DNA from: Paucilactobacillus hokkaidonensis JCM 18461
GTDB lineage: Bacteria > Bacillota > Bacilli > Lactobacillales > Lactobacillaceae
NCBI RefSeq assembly: GCF_000829395.1
Contig: NZ_AP014680.1
Location: 1,364,001 to 1,428,000, forward strand
Length of the DNA: 64,000 bases
Reading direction: 5' to 3'
Part shown: one piece after another, positions 50,353-55,737 of the stretch
Position numbering within the stretch: position 1 is the stretch's first letter
How the letters are laid out: each line of letters starts with the position of its first letter
The notes under the pieces: model-generated
Seen by the model: only the letters and a program-made list of their open reading frames with translations
The model's database searches: none
What the model was told of the DNA's origin: nothing
Made by a program: the position numbers and the translations under genes

Positions 50353-50434
50353 CTAAGCTGTACCTGCAGAAGTAGCATTGCTACCACTAGCTGCGCTTGA
50401 TTCAGCAGGTGTGCTAGAAGTATTTGCTGCTGAA
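50353..50434 (-). other. Candidate +1-frame C-terminal extension of the major tail protein
   Basis: Just after the major tail stop TAG at 50435, the +1 frame stays open to TAG at 50353. It encodes about 27 residues rich in Ser, Ala and Thr (SSAANTSSTPAESSA...), continuing the composition of the 0-frame end, PAAASSSTTG. Either a programmed +1 (or -2) recoding or a single-base change has separated it. No classic +1 slip codon is obvious. Confidence 0.5.
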
Positions 50435-51043
50435 CTAGCCGGTGGTGCTACTACTCGCCGCAGCTGGGAAAACGTCTGCAAGCATAGTTTCTTCCTTGAA
50501 TAGCGTATCGCCACTGTAATAGTTCTTGTATGGTTCACCGTTGTTCCAATCTGAAACGCCTAATGCAGTGAATGTTAGAACATCGTTTTGACGAGTTGAA
50601 GCTGTATCAGTATCGGTTTGCACGTTTTCAGACGCTGCAGAAACTTGAGTTCTACGGAATCCAAAAAAGATACTGTTCTTGCGATCAATCGTCTCTGTCT
50701 CAATAAGGACAGCTACTTTAGGCTTAGCTCCAGAATACACGTAACCACCAGCGCCATCAGATTCATTACCAAGAATTTGATTTTTGATCGGAACAAATAA
50801 ATTGTTAACCGTCATAGCAATCTGTGGAGCTGAAGGGTTTGTGTATGAATCTTGAACTAGGTTGTTACCAGCAACCTTTACTACTGAACCTTCTAGGTTA
50901 GTAATATTAGCTGTTTGTGTACCGAAGTATGTGTTGTCAATGGCTAGAATTCCAGTTTCTGAAAGTCCTTCTGCACCAGAAATAATTTTTTCGTTATCAT
51001 CGATCAAAGCAAGTTTGACCATTTTTAAACCAACATGTGCCAT
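50435..51043 (-). CDS. Major tail tube protein
   Basis: 202 residues, with a strong GAGGAGG site before ATG 51043. The MAHVGLKMVKLALID start, the GAEGLSETGILAIDNTYFGTQTANITNLEG strand pair, and the later FGFRRTQVSAASENVQTDTDTASTRQNDVLTFTALGV stretch match siphovirus major tail proteins (phi13/TP901 type). It polymerises into the tail tube. Its last 9 residues before the stop are AAASSSTTG-like, and a same-composition stretch lies in another frame right after. Confidence 0.88.
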   Translation of the reverse strand: MAHVGLKMVKLALIDDNEKIISGAEGLSETGILAIDNTYFGTQTANITNLEGSVVKVAGNNLVQDSYTNPSAPQIAMTVNNLFVPIKNQILGNESDGAGGYVYSGAKPKVAVLIETETIDRKNSIFFGFRRTQVSAASENVQTDTDTASTRQNDVLTFTALGVSDWNNGEPYKNYYSGDTLFKEETMLADVFPAAASSSTTG

Positions 51044-51851: not shown

Positions 51852-52229
51852 TTATTTACCTCCACCACGCTTTATTTTGCTAAGTGTCACAAAATCATAG
51901 GCGATATACATTTCATCATCAGGTGAGACGTCCGTAATGTCATACGTAACACCGTTGACTACACATTGCTGCATATTTTCCAACTGATTATTGTGACGAA
52001 CCGCAATCGTACTCGTGTCTTCAAGTTCTGTGCCAGCAGCTAAATATTTTTGAGTCATTGTGGTTTTAACACGTGCATAATGCAGAGTTAACTTTTTTTG
52101 AAACTTTGGAACATTAACGCCTGCACCATTTTCAACCGATCCAACAACACCAAAATCAGCCGTTTTGTTAAGCTGATAAGGCTTATAGCTGCTTTTTAAT
52201 TGAGAGTTGCTACTCAGTTGAAGTGCCAC
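51852..52229 (-). CDS. Phage head closure (head-tail joining) protein
   Basis: 125 residues from GTG 52229, with AAGGGAG nine bases upstream; TTG 52238 would be too close to it. KKLTLHYARVKTTMTQKYLAAGTELEDTSTIAVRHN and the DITDVSPDDEMYIAYDFVTLSKI end fit the SPP1 gp16/HK97 gp9 head closure group. It overlaps the upstream connector by about 20 bases. Confidence 0.8.
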   Translation of the reverse strand: MALQLSSNSQLKSSYKPYQLNKTADFGVVGSVENGAGVNVPKFQKKLTLHYARVKTTMTQKYLAAGTELEDTSTIAVRHNNQLENMQQCVVNGVTYDITDVSPDDEMYIAYDFVTLSKIKRGGGK

Positions 52230-52497
52230 TGAAATCAACTCCCTTCAAATTGTTGATCATCATTTGTGTTCCTAAACTCAATCCATTAGGCAAAGTACGG
52301 TTGTAATACAAGTCCGTTGCTAACGTTTTGACTGCGCGATTAAAAATTGAATTATTTTCGAATAAATTTTTCGGCACTTTAGAATCGACAGAGTTAATAA
52401 TAATGTCCTCTGATTCATTAATTAAGCTTTTTGCAATAGCTTGATTCTCGTCAGTAATATCTAAATTTAATTCTGATAATAAAATATCAGTGTCCAT
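52210..52497 (-). CDS. Phage head-tail connector (gp6/gp15-like)
   Basis: 95 residues, all-helical. ITDENQAIAKSLINESEDIIINSVD, followed by IFNRAVKTLATDLYYNRTL, is the four-helix adaptor pattern of the HK97 gp6/SPP1 gp15 family. It docks on the portal. It begins 15 bases after the end of the HeH extension frame. Confidence 0.85.
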   Translation of the reverse strand: MDTDILLSELNLDITDENQAIAKSLINESEDIIINSVDSKVPKNLFENNSIFNRAVKTLATDLYYNRTLPNGLSLGTQMMINNLKGVDFSGTSTE

Positions 52498-52509
52498 TTA
52501 AATCACCGC

Positions 52510-52698
52510 CTATTCTGCAGGCACTAAAGCCAATAGATCAGCTTTCGCAGTTTTGCCCGTGTGGTCAATGCTATGTGCATCTAACCAAGCGGTAATTTCA
52601 GCAACTGTATTTGCATCAGTAGGTTTTACATTACCAGCTGGATTAAATGCTGTTGTTTTTGAACCACCGTCAGTTGTCTCAGACGGGTCTACGCTTTT
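52510..52698 (-). CDS. HeH/LEM-like C-terminal domain of capsid protein, -1 frameshift product
   Basis: Open -1 frame of about 61 codons after the capsid slippery site. It opens SVDPSETTDGGSKTT, then has a linker, then the helix-extended-helix unit TVAEITAWLDAHSIDHTGKTAKADLLALVPAE in two pieces (VAEITAWLDAHSI, TGKTAKADLLALV). It has no ATG, GTG or TTG with a ribosome site in a sensible position. Composition and the conserved fold show that it is coding. It ends at TAG 52510-52512, just before the connector gene. Confidence 0.85.
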   Translation of the reverse strand, partial: KSVDPSETTDGGSKTTAFNPAGNVKPTDANTVAEITAWLDAHSIDHTGKTAKADLLALVPAE

Positions 52699-53612
52699 GG
52701 GGCTGTACCAGCAATCAATGCAATAAGGTCTGGACGTGCTTGCACAACGTCAAGACGTTCGTAGATACCTAATAGACGGTAGAATACGTCGTAAGTATCA
52801 ATGAACTTACCAGTGATTTCATGGTTTTTAAATTCAATGACTGCTTTTTGCATCGGAGCAATAACAACATTAATGTCTCCAGCCTTAGCGTTGGGGAATA
52901 ATTCGTCGGCCACAACAACAACGGTTTTACCTAGCAGACGAACTGAGGCACCCTGTGTCATGTCTGGTTGAATTAAGTCACGTCCTTCTTTGTCTTGCAA
53001 CTTATGGATTGTAGCAAAAGCGGATTGTGACAATACAATTGTGGCAGCTTGCGAATCTTGAGGCTTTAATCGCTTATCAAGTGCATCTTTAATTGCTGCA
53101 ACAATATCAGCAGAACCATCTGAAGCGGTGATGCCAGTTGTTAAGGCAGCCATAATCATTGCATCATCAGTGTTATCACGTAATTCAAGCAAACGCGATT
53201 GCAATTCTGTCTCCCAGTTATATTGTGAATCGTCAAGAAGCTCTTGTGAGTAGGCATAAGTACTTGAGTATGATTTCAAATCCCAAGGAATTGGCTTAAT
53301 TTCTGGCACTGCATGACGACTTGAAGAACCAAATTCAGTGTGTTCAGATAATGTGTCATCCGATGTCATGAACACTGGTAATTTACCAGTAGTGGTCTTA
53401 ACAGCAATCTTTCGAACCAAACCACCTAAGCGTGGGAATTGGTGCTGTTCGTGTTCTGGATTAAGGATAGTTTCAGGAATGATAACTGAACCATCTGACA
53501 ACGCAATGTGTGAATCTGCTGCACGCTTAACTTCACCTTTACGTAAAAATTCTTCAAAATCGCGTTTTTCTTCATCTACCACTTTTAATTGTGGGGTAAT
53601 GTCCTGAGCCAT
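52689..53612 (-). CDS. Major capsid protein from internal start
   Basis: In-frame ATG 53612 (MAQDITPQLKVVDEEKRDFEEF) is preceded by a near-ideal AAGGAGG at seven bases, inside the fusion gene. The product would be 307 residues, the usual size of an HK97-type capsid protein after scaffold removal. VIIPETILNPEHEQHQFPRLG, WETELQSRLLELRDNTDDAMI and the ERLDVVQARPDLIALIAG end are capsid-fold stretches. About 1 in some number of ribosomes would frameshift at 52695-52701 to add the HeH domain. Nested initiation is inferred from the ribosome site only. Confidence 0.8.
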   Translation of the reverse strand: MAQDITPQLKVVDEEKRDFEEFLRKGEVKRAADSHIALSDGSVIIPETILNPEHEQHQFPRLGGLVRKIAVKTTTGKLPVFMTSDDTLSEHTEFGSSSRHAVPEIKPIPWDLKSYSSTYAYSQELLDDSQYNWETELQSRLLELRDNTDDAMIMAALTTGITASDGSADIVAAIKDALDKRLKPQDSQAATIVLSQSAFATIHKLQDKEGRDLIQPDMTQGASVRLLGKTVVVVADELFPNAKAGDINVVIAPMQKAVIEFKNHEITGKFIDTYDVFYRLLGIYERLDVVQARPDLIALIAGTAPKA

Positions 53613-54581
53613 GTTTTGGCCTCCTTCTTTAATATCACGTTTCTTTTCTTTGACTGGTTGCTTTTGATCTGTAGGTGCAGTACTAGAAGAAGCAGCACCC
53701 TCATTAGCTTGTTCAGCTTGAGGAACTGCTTCATCAGTTTTCTTTGCATTTGTTTGCTCATCATCACCATCATCACGTTTTTTGGTTCCTGGTAATGTTG
53801 GTTGAGGTGTGACTGTGTCACCCGCGTTGGCACTTGCTTTCGGTGCTGCTGATGTTTTAGCCGCACGGTCTTCATCATCGCCATCATCTCTAGTAGGAGC
53901 TGGTGTCGGCTTTTGCGGTTGATCATTACTATCTGCTGGATTCGGTTTAGTATCTGAATCAGCAGGTTGATCATCAGCTGGTTTGCTTTGCTGCAATTTT
54001 TGTAGTGTTTCTTTTAACAGATCCACTAAGGTTTCATCTTTGTTCATATCTCTTTTTTCAACTCCCTTTTTAAATTCTTCTAAGCTTCGCTGAACTTGCG
54101 TTGAGACTTGTGTCTCTTGATATGCCGGTATCGGAGTGATTGAAATTTCACTCATCGATTCAATTTGAGTCACTGTGTGAATAGTTATACTGTCTCCACC
54201 TTGACTCCATGTGTCACCACCATCAGCAATCTTGAAGCCAAATGACATCCCCGAAACTCGGTTCGTTGCAATTAGTTCTGCAACGTCATTACCCAACGTT
54301 GTGTTTGGCAATTCGGCTGTAAAATGCAGGCCGTTATCATCATCGGTAATCGCTAAACTCCCTGACGGAATGCTAGCAAGCACGTTTTGATAATCATGGC
54401 TGTACAACAAAAGGAGCTGGCCTAAGTCAACTCCTTCAAGTGCCCCAGGCATGATGTATTCCACAAATCCCATGTCCTGTGAGGGCTCGTTATAAACAAT
54501 TGCAGTTCCTTCGATTTGATGAGTATCTTGCTCATCTGAACGCACATGAAGCTTAGTAGCTCTAATTTCCATTGTTTTCAT
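52689..54581 (-). CDS. Fused prohead protease, scaffold and major capsid protein (HK97 type)
   Basis: 630 residues from ATG 54581 (GGGAGG eight bases upstream; GTG 54590 rejected). The U35 protease covers about residues 1-170: IEGTAIVYNEPS, LLYSHDYQNVLA with the catalytic His, and NRVSGMSFGF with the catalytic Ser. A low-complexity acidic linker with two RDDGDDE repeats follows, which probably acts as scaffold. The HK97 major capsid is the last 307 residues. Usually the first two are separate genes from the capsid, so the fusion is notable. An internal start at 53612 is present. Confidence 0.9.
   Translation of the reverse strand: MKTMEIRATKLHVRSDEQDTHQIEGTAIVYNEPSQDMGFVEYIMPGALEGVDLGQLLLLYSHDYQNVLASIPSGSLAITDDDNGLHFTAELPNTTLGNDVAELIATNRVSGMSFGFKIADGGDTWSQGGDSITIHTVTQIESMSEISITPIPAYQETQVSTQVQRSLEEFKKGVEKRDMNKDETLVDLLKETLQKLQQSKPADDQPADSDTKPNPADSNDQPQKPTPAPTRDDGDDEDRAAKTSAAPKASANAGDTVTPQPTLPGTKKRDDGDDEQTNAKKTDEAVPQAEQANEGAASSSTAPTDQKQPVKEKKRDIKEGGQNMAQDITPQLKVVDEEKRDFEEFLRKGEVKRAADSHIALSDGSVIIPETILNPEHEQHQFPRLGGLVRKIAVKTTTGKLPVFMTSDDTLSEHTEFGSSSRHAVPEIKPIPWDLKSYSSTYAYSQELLDDSQYNWETELQSRLLELRDNTDDAMIMAALTTGITASDGSADIVAAIKDALDKRLKPQDSQAATIVLSQSAFATIHKLQDKEGRDLIQPDMTQGASVRLLGKTVVVVADELFPNAKAGDINVVIAPMQKAVIEFKNHEITGKFIDTYDVFYRLLGIYERLDVVQARPDLIALIAGTAPKA
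52695..52701 (-). promoter_or_regulatory. -1 ribosomal frameshift slippery heptamer C CCA AAA
   Basis: In the 0-frame the capsid gene ends GCC CCA AAA GCG TAG. The heptamer C-CCA-AAA fits X-XXY-YYZ (X=C, Y=A) exactly and lies one codon before the stop. A short GC-rich hairpin (CGTC...GACG within GACCCGTC and GACGGTGG) can form a few bases downstream. The -1 frame is open into the HeH-like domain. A CCCAAAA -1 frameshift at the end of the major head gene is known to me from Lactobacillus phage A2. Confidence 0.88.
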
Positions 54582-55737
54582 CTTTCTCACCTCCCCCTGG
54601 TGATTCTACTGGTGGGTTACTGGCAAGAATCGTTGGATCATAAACTTCCTTATCAGATAAGATTTGTCTAATCTGTGTGCCTGATAGAACTGCGCTCTTG
54701 CCGGCCAAACTAACTAATTTGTCAATCAAGTCACTGTTATCAATATCAACAGCTGATTCAATATCCAAGTTAACTGGCTGGCCAAGCTTCATTGTCAATT
54801 CCGATTCAATTGCTTTCATATAAGGGTTCAATGAATCGATAAACAAGCTACGCATCATAGACACACTAGATTGTTCATCACCCTGACCATTCAGATAGCT
54901 GTCGGAAATACCGAATGCCTTAGCAATTTGGGTCTGTGAGAACGTTACGTTGCTCAACAGTTTGGCAACGTCTGGATCAATCTGTAACGGATTAATCTGC
55001 AAACCTTGATCAAGTACAATTGCTTTCCCTGAATTATCGCCAGCGTTGGCTTTTTCAAACTCAGCTCTAATTTTGTCCTTTGCATCAGGCCCAAGAATAC
55101 CTTCAGGAACAGTTAGCGTGTAAGAAGGAGCAATCGCATTTTTTAGCATTGAAATAGACATCTTGTTGGAATAGTCCTGGAGATTTAATTCCCTGACTAA
55201 ACTATCAAGTGGTGACACGCCGACATACTTAGTGCTCACTTGCCCACTAACGAATAAGCGGAAATGCAACATATTGGCAGATTTGATTTTTGTTGTGCCA
55301 CGTTCATCGTTGTAGTTAACTGTGTAGGTAATATCCTTAGAGCTATCTTCTAGTGTGATAGTCACTTGATCAATCGGTATCTGCTCTAAACGTGTTGGCA
55401 CGCCTTGATTATCCCGTGTAATTACCACATAACAGTTACCCGCTAAACATAATTGTGAAACAACTGATTGCCAAAAATTATAAGAATTAACTAGATTATT
55501 TGGGTTGTCTAACAATTGCTTGAATGGTTCATTAACACGAAACGTACAAGCTGAAATATCGGAAGCAATCCGATTAATAACCGCAAAAATATCACTATTC
55601 TTCAGGGCATTATCTGCATTGACCGTATTAGCCGTGATCACTTGGCCATCACTTGAAAAGACGAATGGCATGTACCCACCATTGGTTAACGTCTGACTAC
55701 GAATATTGTTACGTTCAAATTTTCTAAATGGATTCAT
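54562..55737 (-). CDS. Phage portal protein, HK97 family
   Basis: 391 residues, with GGGGGTGA seven bases before ATG 55737. NSDIFAVINRIASDISACTF, QLCLAGNCYVVITRDNQGVPTRLEQIP and GISDSYLNGQGDEQSSVSMMRSLFIDSLNPYMKAIESEL are diagnostic of HK97-type portals. It forms the dodecameric DNA channel. The C-terminus overlaps the protease start by about 20 bases. Confidence 0.95.
   Translation of the reverse strand: MNPFRKFERNNIRSQTLTNGGYMPFVFSSDGQVITANTVNADNALKNSDIFAVINRIASDISACTFRVNEPFKQLLDNPNNLVNSYNFWQSVVSQLCLAGNCYVVITRDNQGVPTRLEQIPIDQVTITLEDSSKDITYTVNYNDERGTTKIKSANMLHFRLFVSGQVSTKYVGVSPLDSLVRELNLQDYSNKMSISMLKNAIAPSYTLTVPEGILGPDAKDKIRAEFEKANAGDNSGKAIVLDQGLQINPLQIDPDVAKLLSNVTFSQTQIAKAFGISDSYLNGQGDEQSSVSMMRSLFIDSLNPYMKAIESELTMKLGQPVNLDIESAVDIDNSDLIDKLVSLAGKSAVLSGTQIRQILSDKEVYDPTILASNPPVESPGGGEKDENNGN

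Follow-up and report, generated by a model that had tools for sequence, protein, structure and literature searches.

In Lactobacillus phage A2, a head component made by frameshifting has been reported, and two A2 frameshifts, one in the head and one in the tail, are named in a review (PMC5009743; this and the other PMC articles are cited from excerpts). In the A2 genome (AJ251789), the heptamer stands in the context CCCAAAAGCGTAA, and BIG2-like extensions are found on both the head and the tail-tube genes, which matches the two frameshifts named in that review. In Listeria phages, the coat protein is extended via a -1 shift in A118 and A500 and via a +1 shift in PSA (PMC5009743). A CCCAAAA slippery sequence is also mentioned for the head gene of phage BH1 (PMC6950654). 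In a Streptococcus agalactiae phage, an annotated HeH/LEM gene adjoins a GpE-type capsid gene, and a relative was called DNA/RNA-binding (PMC10221047). An HeH extension produced by frameshifting is not described among the open-access matches listed or in the excerpts cited.

Here, a window of 64,000 nucleotides from Paucilactobacillus hokkaidonensis JCM 18461 was analyzed (NZ_AP014680.1, positions 1,364,001 to 1,428,000; all coordinates below are those of the window). It holds a prophage in which a programmed ribosome slip very probably appends a small HeH-like domain to a minor share of the shell protein. The predicted arrangement is a frameshift extension of the A2 type with a different domain, HeH-like instead of Ig-like. 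Similar to A2 gp5, the site lies at the 3′ end of the head gene, with a CCCAAAAGCGTA(A/G) site, a PKSV.P junction and a shift in the -1 direction. However, A2 gp5 gains a BIG2-like Ig domain, 87 residues past PK, whereas the extension in the window has 61 residues, composed of a linker and an HeH unit; in addition, the A2 product was studied experimentally (PMC5009743), while that of the window is predicted from the sequence. The initial annotation had named A2 as a precedent, which stands for the heptamer (AJ251789) but not for the domain, which is Ig-like in A2. The Listeria phages resemble the loci surveyed below in using both -1 and +1 routes, HeH being reached mostly by -1 and, in nine loci, by +1 behind CCC. 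They differ in being treated with Ig-like extensions (PMC5009743), the domain here being HeH-like.

The capsid gene and its slip site

The open reading frames place a tailed-phage head-tail module on the minus strand, at about 42-60 kb of the window, and all features given here lie on that strand. The portal protein gene (54562..55737; Pfam Phage_portal, 2e-54) is the upstream neighbor of an ORF in which a prohead protease of the S78 type is fused to an HK97-type major capsid protein (52689..54590; Pfam Peptidase_S78, 9e-40, and Phage_capsid, 3e-15; major head protein phrog_2263, 4e-104). Downstream lie a small gene of the head module with its own ATG and without a Pfam match (52210..52497) and, identified by Pfam, the genes of a head completion protein (51852..52238) and of the tail-tube protein (50435..51043). 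Beyond its stop, the tail-tube gene is followed by a Ser/Ala/Thr-rich +1 frame of about 28 codons (50353-50437), which could represent either an extension by a +1 shift or a remnant. This frame was not found in three relatives at 51-52% identity, and a second frameshift at the tail-tube gene was therefore rejected.

The capsid gene ends with GGT ACA GCC CCA AAA GCG TAG, and its 0-frame product has the C-terminus GTAPKA. The heptamer C CCA AAA (52695..52701) is in phase and lies one codon before the stop TAG (52689..52691); together with the following GCG codon it is identical to the site in the A2 head gene. The -1 frame reached by the slip (52510..52701) would be read as PK plus 61 residues, encoding SVDPSETTDGGSKTTAFNPAGNVKPTDANTVAEITAWLDAHSIDHTGKTAKADLLALVPAE past the slip site, up to a TAG at 52512-52510. 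Residues 3-31 of this product (P0001) form a Ser/Thr/Gly-rich linker (52609..52695), whose length and sequence are variable among relatives, and residues 32-60 form the HeH-like unit (52522..52608), with limits taken from the Pfam PF12949 match. The initial annotation had described a heptamer one codon before the stop and a -1 frame open for about 61 codons without a start of its own: the first is exact, as is the second (61 codons past the heptamer plus the stop), and no ATG, GTG or TTG is read in the -1 frame upstream of the HeH unit.

In mononucleotide shuffles of this stretch, the -1 frame stays open in 2.1% of cases. Of 26 hand-picked minus-strand genes, just two, the capsid gene being one of them, carry an in-phase heptamer (X XXY YYZ, where Y is A or T) within the last 12 codons. 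Readthrough of the stop codon was rejected, as the 0 frame beyond the TAG encodes 20 unrelated residues. A second record of the same phage, on a viral contig (L032), has the same junction and is probably from the same isolate. In a DNA-level search, no phage record matched the junction region. The decisive argument beyond chance is comparative, namely the recurrence of the unit in the -1 frame at 107 of 124 loci.

Recurrence of the extension and the RNA stem downstream

The survey used the extension as a protein query and did not require a frameshift. It covered viral contigs (71 loci), phage records (53 of 50,697 matched, 20 of these 53 being fetched before the scan) and 397 genomes of the host's family, of which 121 had a match and the best-scoring matches were taken as loci. 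By profile scan, the unit was located at 124 loci, which are the better-scoring matches and hence a sample biased to strong ones; relative to a long ORF upstream, it is found in the -1 frame at 107, in the +1 frame at nine and in frame at eight, the window's own phage accounting for four of the 124 (L001, L002, L032 and L041). For four of the 107 (L042, L044, L113 and L120), separate genes are the better reading, given a start with a Shine-Dalgarno match past the slip site. In L042, the -1 frame entered at the slip site ends before this start, and the stand-alone gene of this type has AGGAGG and ATG. A further 25 weaker genome matches correspond to 20 ribosomal proteins, two stand-alone HeH genes, two in-frame head fusions and one unassigned match (L421). 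An annotation gap is also exposed, as 22 of the 53 phage records matching the HeH extension list no gene beneath the match.

With the window included and the four stand-alone loci left out, there are 61 distinct -1 junctions, 58 of which have one of four heptamer classes. The heptamer lies 10 nts ahead of the stop in the CCCAAAA (25 of 61) and AAAAAAA (2 of 61) classes and 7 nts ahead of it in the GGGAAAA/C (21 of 61) and GTCAAAA (10 of 61) classes, the other three junctions having another sequence. GTCAAAA (found in L045, L046, L049, L058, L061, L065, L131, L139 and L154, among others) is not a standard X XXY YYZ heptamer, and a slip at these sites would have to take place on A AAA next to the stop codon. 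At the nine +1 loci (L146-L150, L152, L158, L161 and L012), which belong to Streptococcus phages, one Leuconostoc phage and one host-family genome, a CCC codon is always present among the last five codons. This codon suits +1 slippage on CCC, and these loci, with HeH in the +1 frame behind CCC near the capsid stop, are candidate +1 programmed frameshifts. In another locus (L030), the +1 frame behind the capsid ORF encodes about 40 Thr-rich residues and no HeH.

Judging from the pattern of substitutions, the HeH unit evolves as a protein in its own frame. For the HeH core, pN/pS amounts to 0.22 in the frame of the extension versus 1.63 and 2.27 in the other two frames (71 distinct cores, 959 pairs, 3-35% divergent; of 116 frameshifted loci, two that the motif did not pick up, L012 and L156, are outside this set). 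In the closest pairs (below 15%), differences fall at codon positions 1, 2 and 3 in 37, 12 and 253 cases, respectively.

The upstream ORFs of 76 distinct loci form eight BLAST clusters. The representatives of these clusters, together with one phage record, are major head proteins in 10 out of 10 cases (PHROGs 10, 29, 247, 422 and 544), so that, counting PHROG 2263 of the window, six head-protein families carry the unit. Within the window's own capsid family (the window and 14 others, L005 and L034 apparently being one prophage), both the heptamer and a long -1 ORF are present in two of the 15 loci, the window with HeH and L008 with an Ig-like extension, and neither is present in the other 13. 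Because these 13 close capsid loci are without any extension, the module is evolutionarily dispensable. EV3, Lv-1 and bIL309, further phages of this capsid family, have no long -1 or +1 frame.

The initial annotation had also pointed to a GC-rich hairpin just downstream of the heptamer. A candidate 3′ stimulatory hairpin, with a 5-bp stem of CCGUC and GACGG separated by 10 nts (52667..52686), can form 8 nts past the heptamer, but its folding energy of -7.0 kcal/mol (z = 0.45) is no better than that of shuffles; five relatives chosen for their strong stems reach -11.5 to -15.2 kcal/mol. Strong short stems are found directly downstream at 53 of the 70 distinct -1 junctions obtained when the stand-alone loci are counted, versus 3 of 70 farther downstream and 4.5% of shuffles, and at six of the nine +1 loci. 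By a looser cut, 50 of the 58 junctions in the four heptamer classes have a stem, which starts 5-7 nts past the heptamer in 38 of these 50; this spacing from the heptamer is kept although the stop sits at two distances, 10 or 7 nts. CCCAAAA is the loosest class, its 25 junctions including seven without a stem, six with a stem at 2-4 nts, 10 at 5-7 nts and two at 8 nts.

Among 14 hairpins sharing a single geometry, 12 of them distinct, which were chosen for perfect stems and are therefore fully paired by construction, three of the seven pairs have changed on both sides while remaining paired; the covariation score of 0.335, compared to 0.160 in shuffles, was reached by none of 500 shuffles. RNAalifold gave no common structure for 38 junctions of mixed loop lengths, and an Rfam scan of positions 52300-52900 gave no match up to E = 1. 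Among the matches listed of the slip-site scan described below, a strong stem is present at 13 of 19 HeH sites and 10 of 33 unclassified sites, as opposed to 3 of 47 BIG2 sites. A short stem is associated with HeH sites, yet it is not diagnostic alone, since it also occurs at unclassified sites and at a few BIG2 sites.

The HeH-like unit and its exchange with BIG2

HeH is the best label for the unit, yet a weak one for the window's sequence taken by itself. A search against HeH families had been proposed with the initial annotation; HeH (PF12949) is the sole Pfam family matched by the window's extension at E up to 0.1 (E = 0.011), but the 15.9 bits are below the curated cut-off of 28.9, and the Ig-like BIG2 is not matched at this threshold. 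PHROG 12526, a family of unknown function, is a better fit to the extension (phrog_12526, 1.3e-15), and NCBIfam has no family for it, other members giving weak matches. Among 49 aligned members, 39 match Pfam HeH at E up to 0.1, with a best value of 8.6e-12, and weak profile matches at the same threshold are seen to SAP (9 of 49), Rho_N (3 of 49) and Ish1 (26 of 49). Two proteins with the same unit pass the curated HeH cut-off, L401 with 34.9 bits and L423 with 31.1 bits.

In the PDB, the extension profile matches a single sequence at E up to 1, FluMu gp35 (2OUT; E 9e-4, residues 70-120), which comes, however, from a Mu-like prophage of another bacterial phylum. The gp35 gene of phage Mu lies directly after the Mu capsid gene; Mu gp35 was rejected as an HeH homologue, as it gave no credible match. 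A link to JBD30 gp35 is irrelevant, that protein being an anti-CRISPR according to the excerpt that mentions it.

Viral contigs were also scanned for CCCCAAAAGCGTAA and CCCCAAAAGCGTAG, which gave at least 200 distinct matches, at least 111 of them at the ends of ORFs of at least 80 codons. Among the matches listed, the -1 frames at these ORF ends are BIG2-like in 58 cases, as called by our own four-sequence profile, HeH in 20, other frames of at least 40 residues in 23 and short tails in 10. Both modules occur within single head-protein clusters, with BIG2/HeH counts of 13/2, 5/7, 7/1 and 5/1 among the matches listed. The BIG2 extensions share with the HeH extensions an identical 14-base site and the same head-protein clusters; unlike HeH, they are also present on tail-tube proteins, where two clusters (of 12 and 4, named from the PHROG labels of their representatives) have BIG2 in 16 out of 16 members and HeH in none among the matches listed. 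The same predicted slip site takes exchangeable BIG2 or HeH modules. In two viral contigs, at L363:3900 and in the L395:8460 region, the 14-base slip site ends 612-codon ORFs and leads into an unclassified -1 frame of 134 codons.

HeH units are also encountered outside frameshift fusions. In L426 (2395-3102), a stand-alone gene encoding HeH, Big_2 and LysM domains directly follows a GpE-type capsid gene; its product looks like a detached head decoration protein and could bind the cell wall. L415 and L423 are of the same HeH, Big_2 and LysM type. Such stand-alone HeH/LEM proteins (L426; PMC10221047) belong to the same domain family and occupy the same genomic position as the extension, but each is encoded by a separate gene with a start of its own and is not fused to the capsid protein. 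A plasmid record of Enterococcus faecalis has a stand-alone HeH gene behind a tail-tube gene, which calls for caution against a strictly head-specific label.

Many genomes of the lactobacillus family bear such a unit as a C-terminal tail on ribosomal proteins. Among the 25 genome places picked, this HeH tail is found on bS16 in 13 (L400, L403, L404, L406-L413, L418 and L422) and on bL20 in seven (L401, L402, L414, L416, L417, L419 and L420), Pfam confirming L400, L401 and L402 and the others being read from the sequence. The ribosomal unit is up to 79% identical to a phage unit over 34 residues. In the genome of the window itself, the phage copy is the sole HeH match at E up to 1. No paper evidently dealing with HeH tails on bS16 or bL20 was present among the literature matches listed.

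A predicted minor capsid subunit and its alternatives

The -1 frameshift fusion of an HeH-like domain to the capsid protein, which the initial annotation had put forward, is the best-supported reading, given the conservation of the frame and of the slip site, the selection at the protein level and the three alternative decoding routes to the module. Some ribosomes at the end of the capsid message would slip back by one base on C CCA AAA, with the P-site tRNA-Pro and the A-site tRNA-Lys re-pairing on CCC AAA, and would then read the Ser/Thr linker and the 29-residue HeH-like unit. The product would be a minor form of the capsid subunit, exceeding the major one by about 60 residues (6 kDa) and predicted to co-assemble with unextended subunits, so that a limited number of HeH units would hang from the head on flexible linkers, most likely outside. 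HeH would act as a decoration or adhesion module, one that is exchanged in evolution for the Ig-like BIG2 module at the same site. As a whole, a slip-made minor capsid subunit that is co-assembled and displays HeH is the best explanation, with a probability of roughly 0.75. Its parts are not equally firm: expression of the extension by frameshifting is predicted with high confidence, the extended subunits are likely to be present in heads, and an outward display with a binding or stabilizing role is somewhat favored.

The main alternative accepts the frameshift but places the HeH unit inside the head or in assembly, acting on DNA or on another protein. The weak resemblance of members to SAP, Rho_N and Ish1 and the ribosomal HeH tails may fit docking to nucleic acids or proteins, and a stand-alone relative is annotated as DNA/RNA-binding (PMC10221047). 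On the other hand, the exchange with BIG2 at the same site within capsid clusters and the union of HeH with Big_2 and LysM in L426 fit work at the surface and would favor an outside function. In HK97-type shells, the C-terminus is expected to be accessible. An inside or assembly role is hence considered unlikely, though it is the rival that retains the most weight. More doubtful still is the suggestion that HeH is a docking tag of the host family, working on heads as host structures carry a near-identical 34-residue unit. If this were true, the phage, by displaying the unit on a controlled minority of its shell subunits, would use or copy a host protein- or RNA-recognition module via -1, +1, in-frame or stand-alone routes; during assembly, for example, heads could be kept close to ribosomes or to a shared partner, or a released ligand could be bound outside.

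Very improbable, in turn, is the reading of the -1 ORF as a separate small gene using an internal or non-standard start. Stand-alone HeH genes do adjoin phage structural genes, as in the L042 type, L426, the Enterococcus faecalis plasmid record and the Streptococcus agalactiae phage (PMC10221047). However, 83 of 114 loci resemble the window in having no ATG, GTG or TTG before the HeH unit. In six of the 114, four of them the stand-alone cases, a start is accompanied by a Shine-Dalgarno-like match. The in-phase slippery sites at 58 of 61 junctions would be without a role.

Slippage during transcription on the A-run rather than during translation is less credible again. Runs of seven A's do exist, at 2 of 61 distinct junctions, but the window has four A's, as in the CCCAAAA, GGGAAAA and GTCAAAA classes, and the spacing of the stem from the heptamer is characteristic of slippage in translation. 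For transcripts to slip efficiently, longer runs are generally required. Finally, a sequencing error or a recent frame-shifting mutation in a former in-frame fusion, a form that does exist at 8 of 124 loci, is the least probable explanation of all, given that the -1 arrangement recurs at 61 distinct junctions with different heptamers and that the L032 record, though probably of the same isolate, has the same junction.

The preferred reading, a slip-made capsid subunit displaying HeH, would generalize the A2 case to a cassette, in which one slippery site serves BIG2 or HeH in many head-protein families and through several decoding routes. Such a view would enable direct tests of why phages ration a capsid tail and of what HeH binds.
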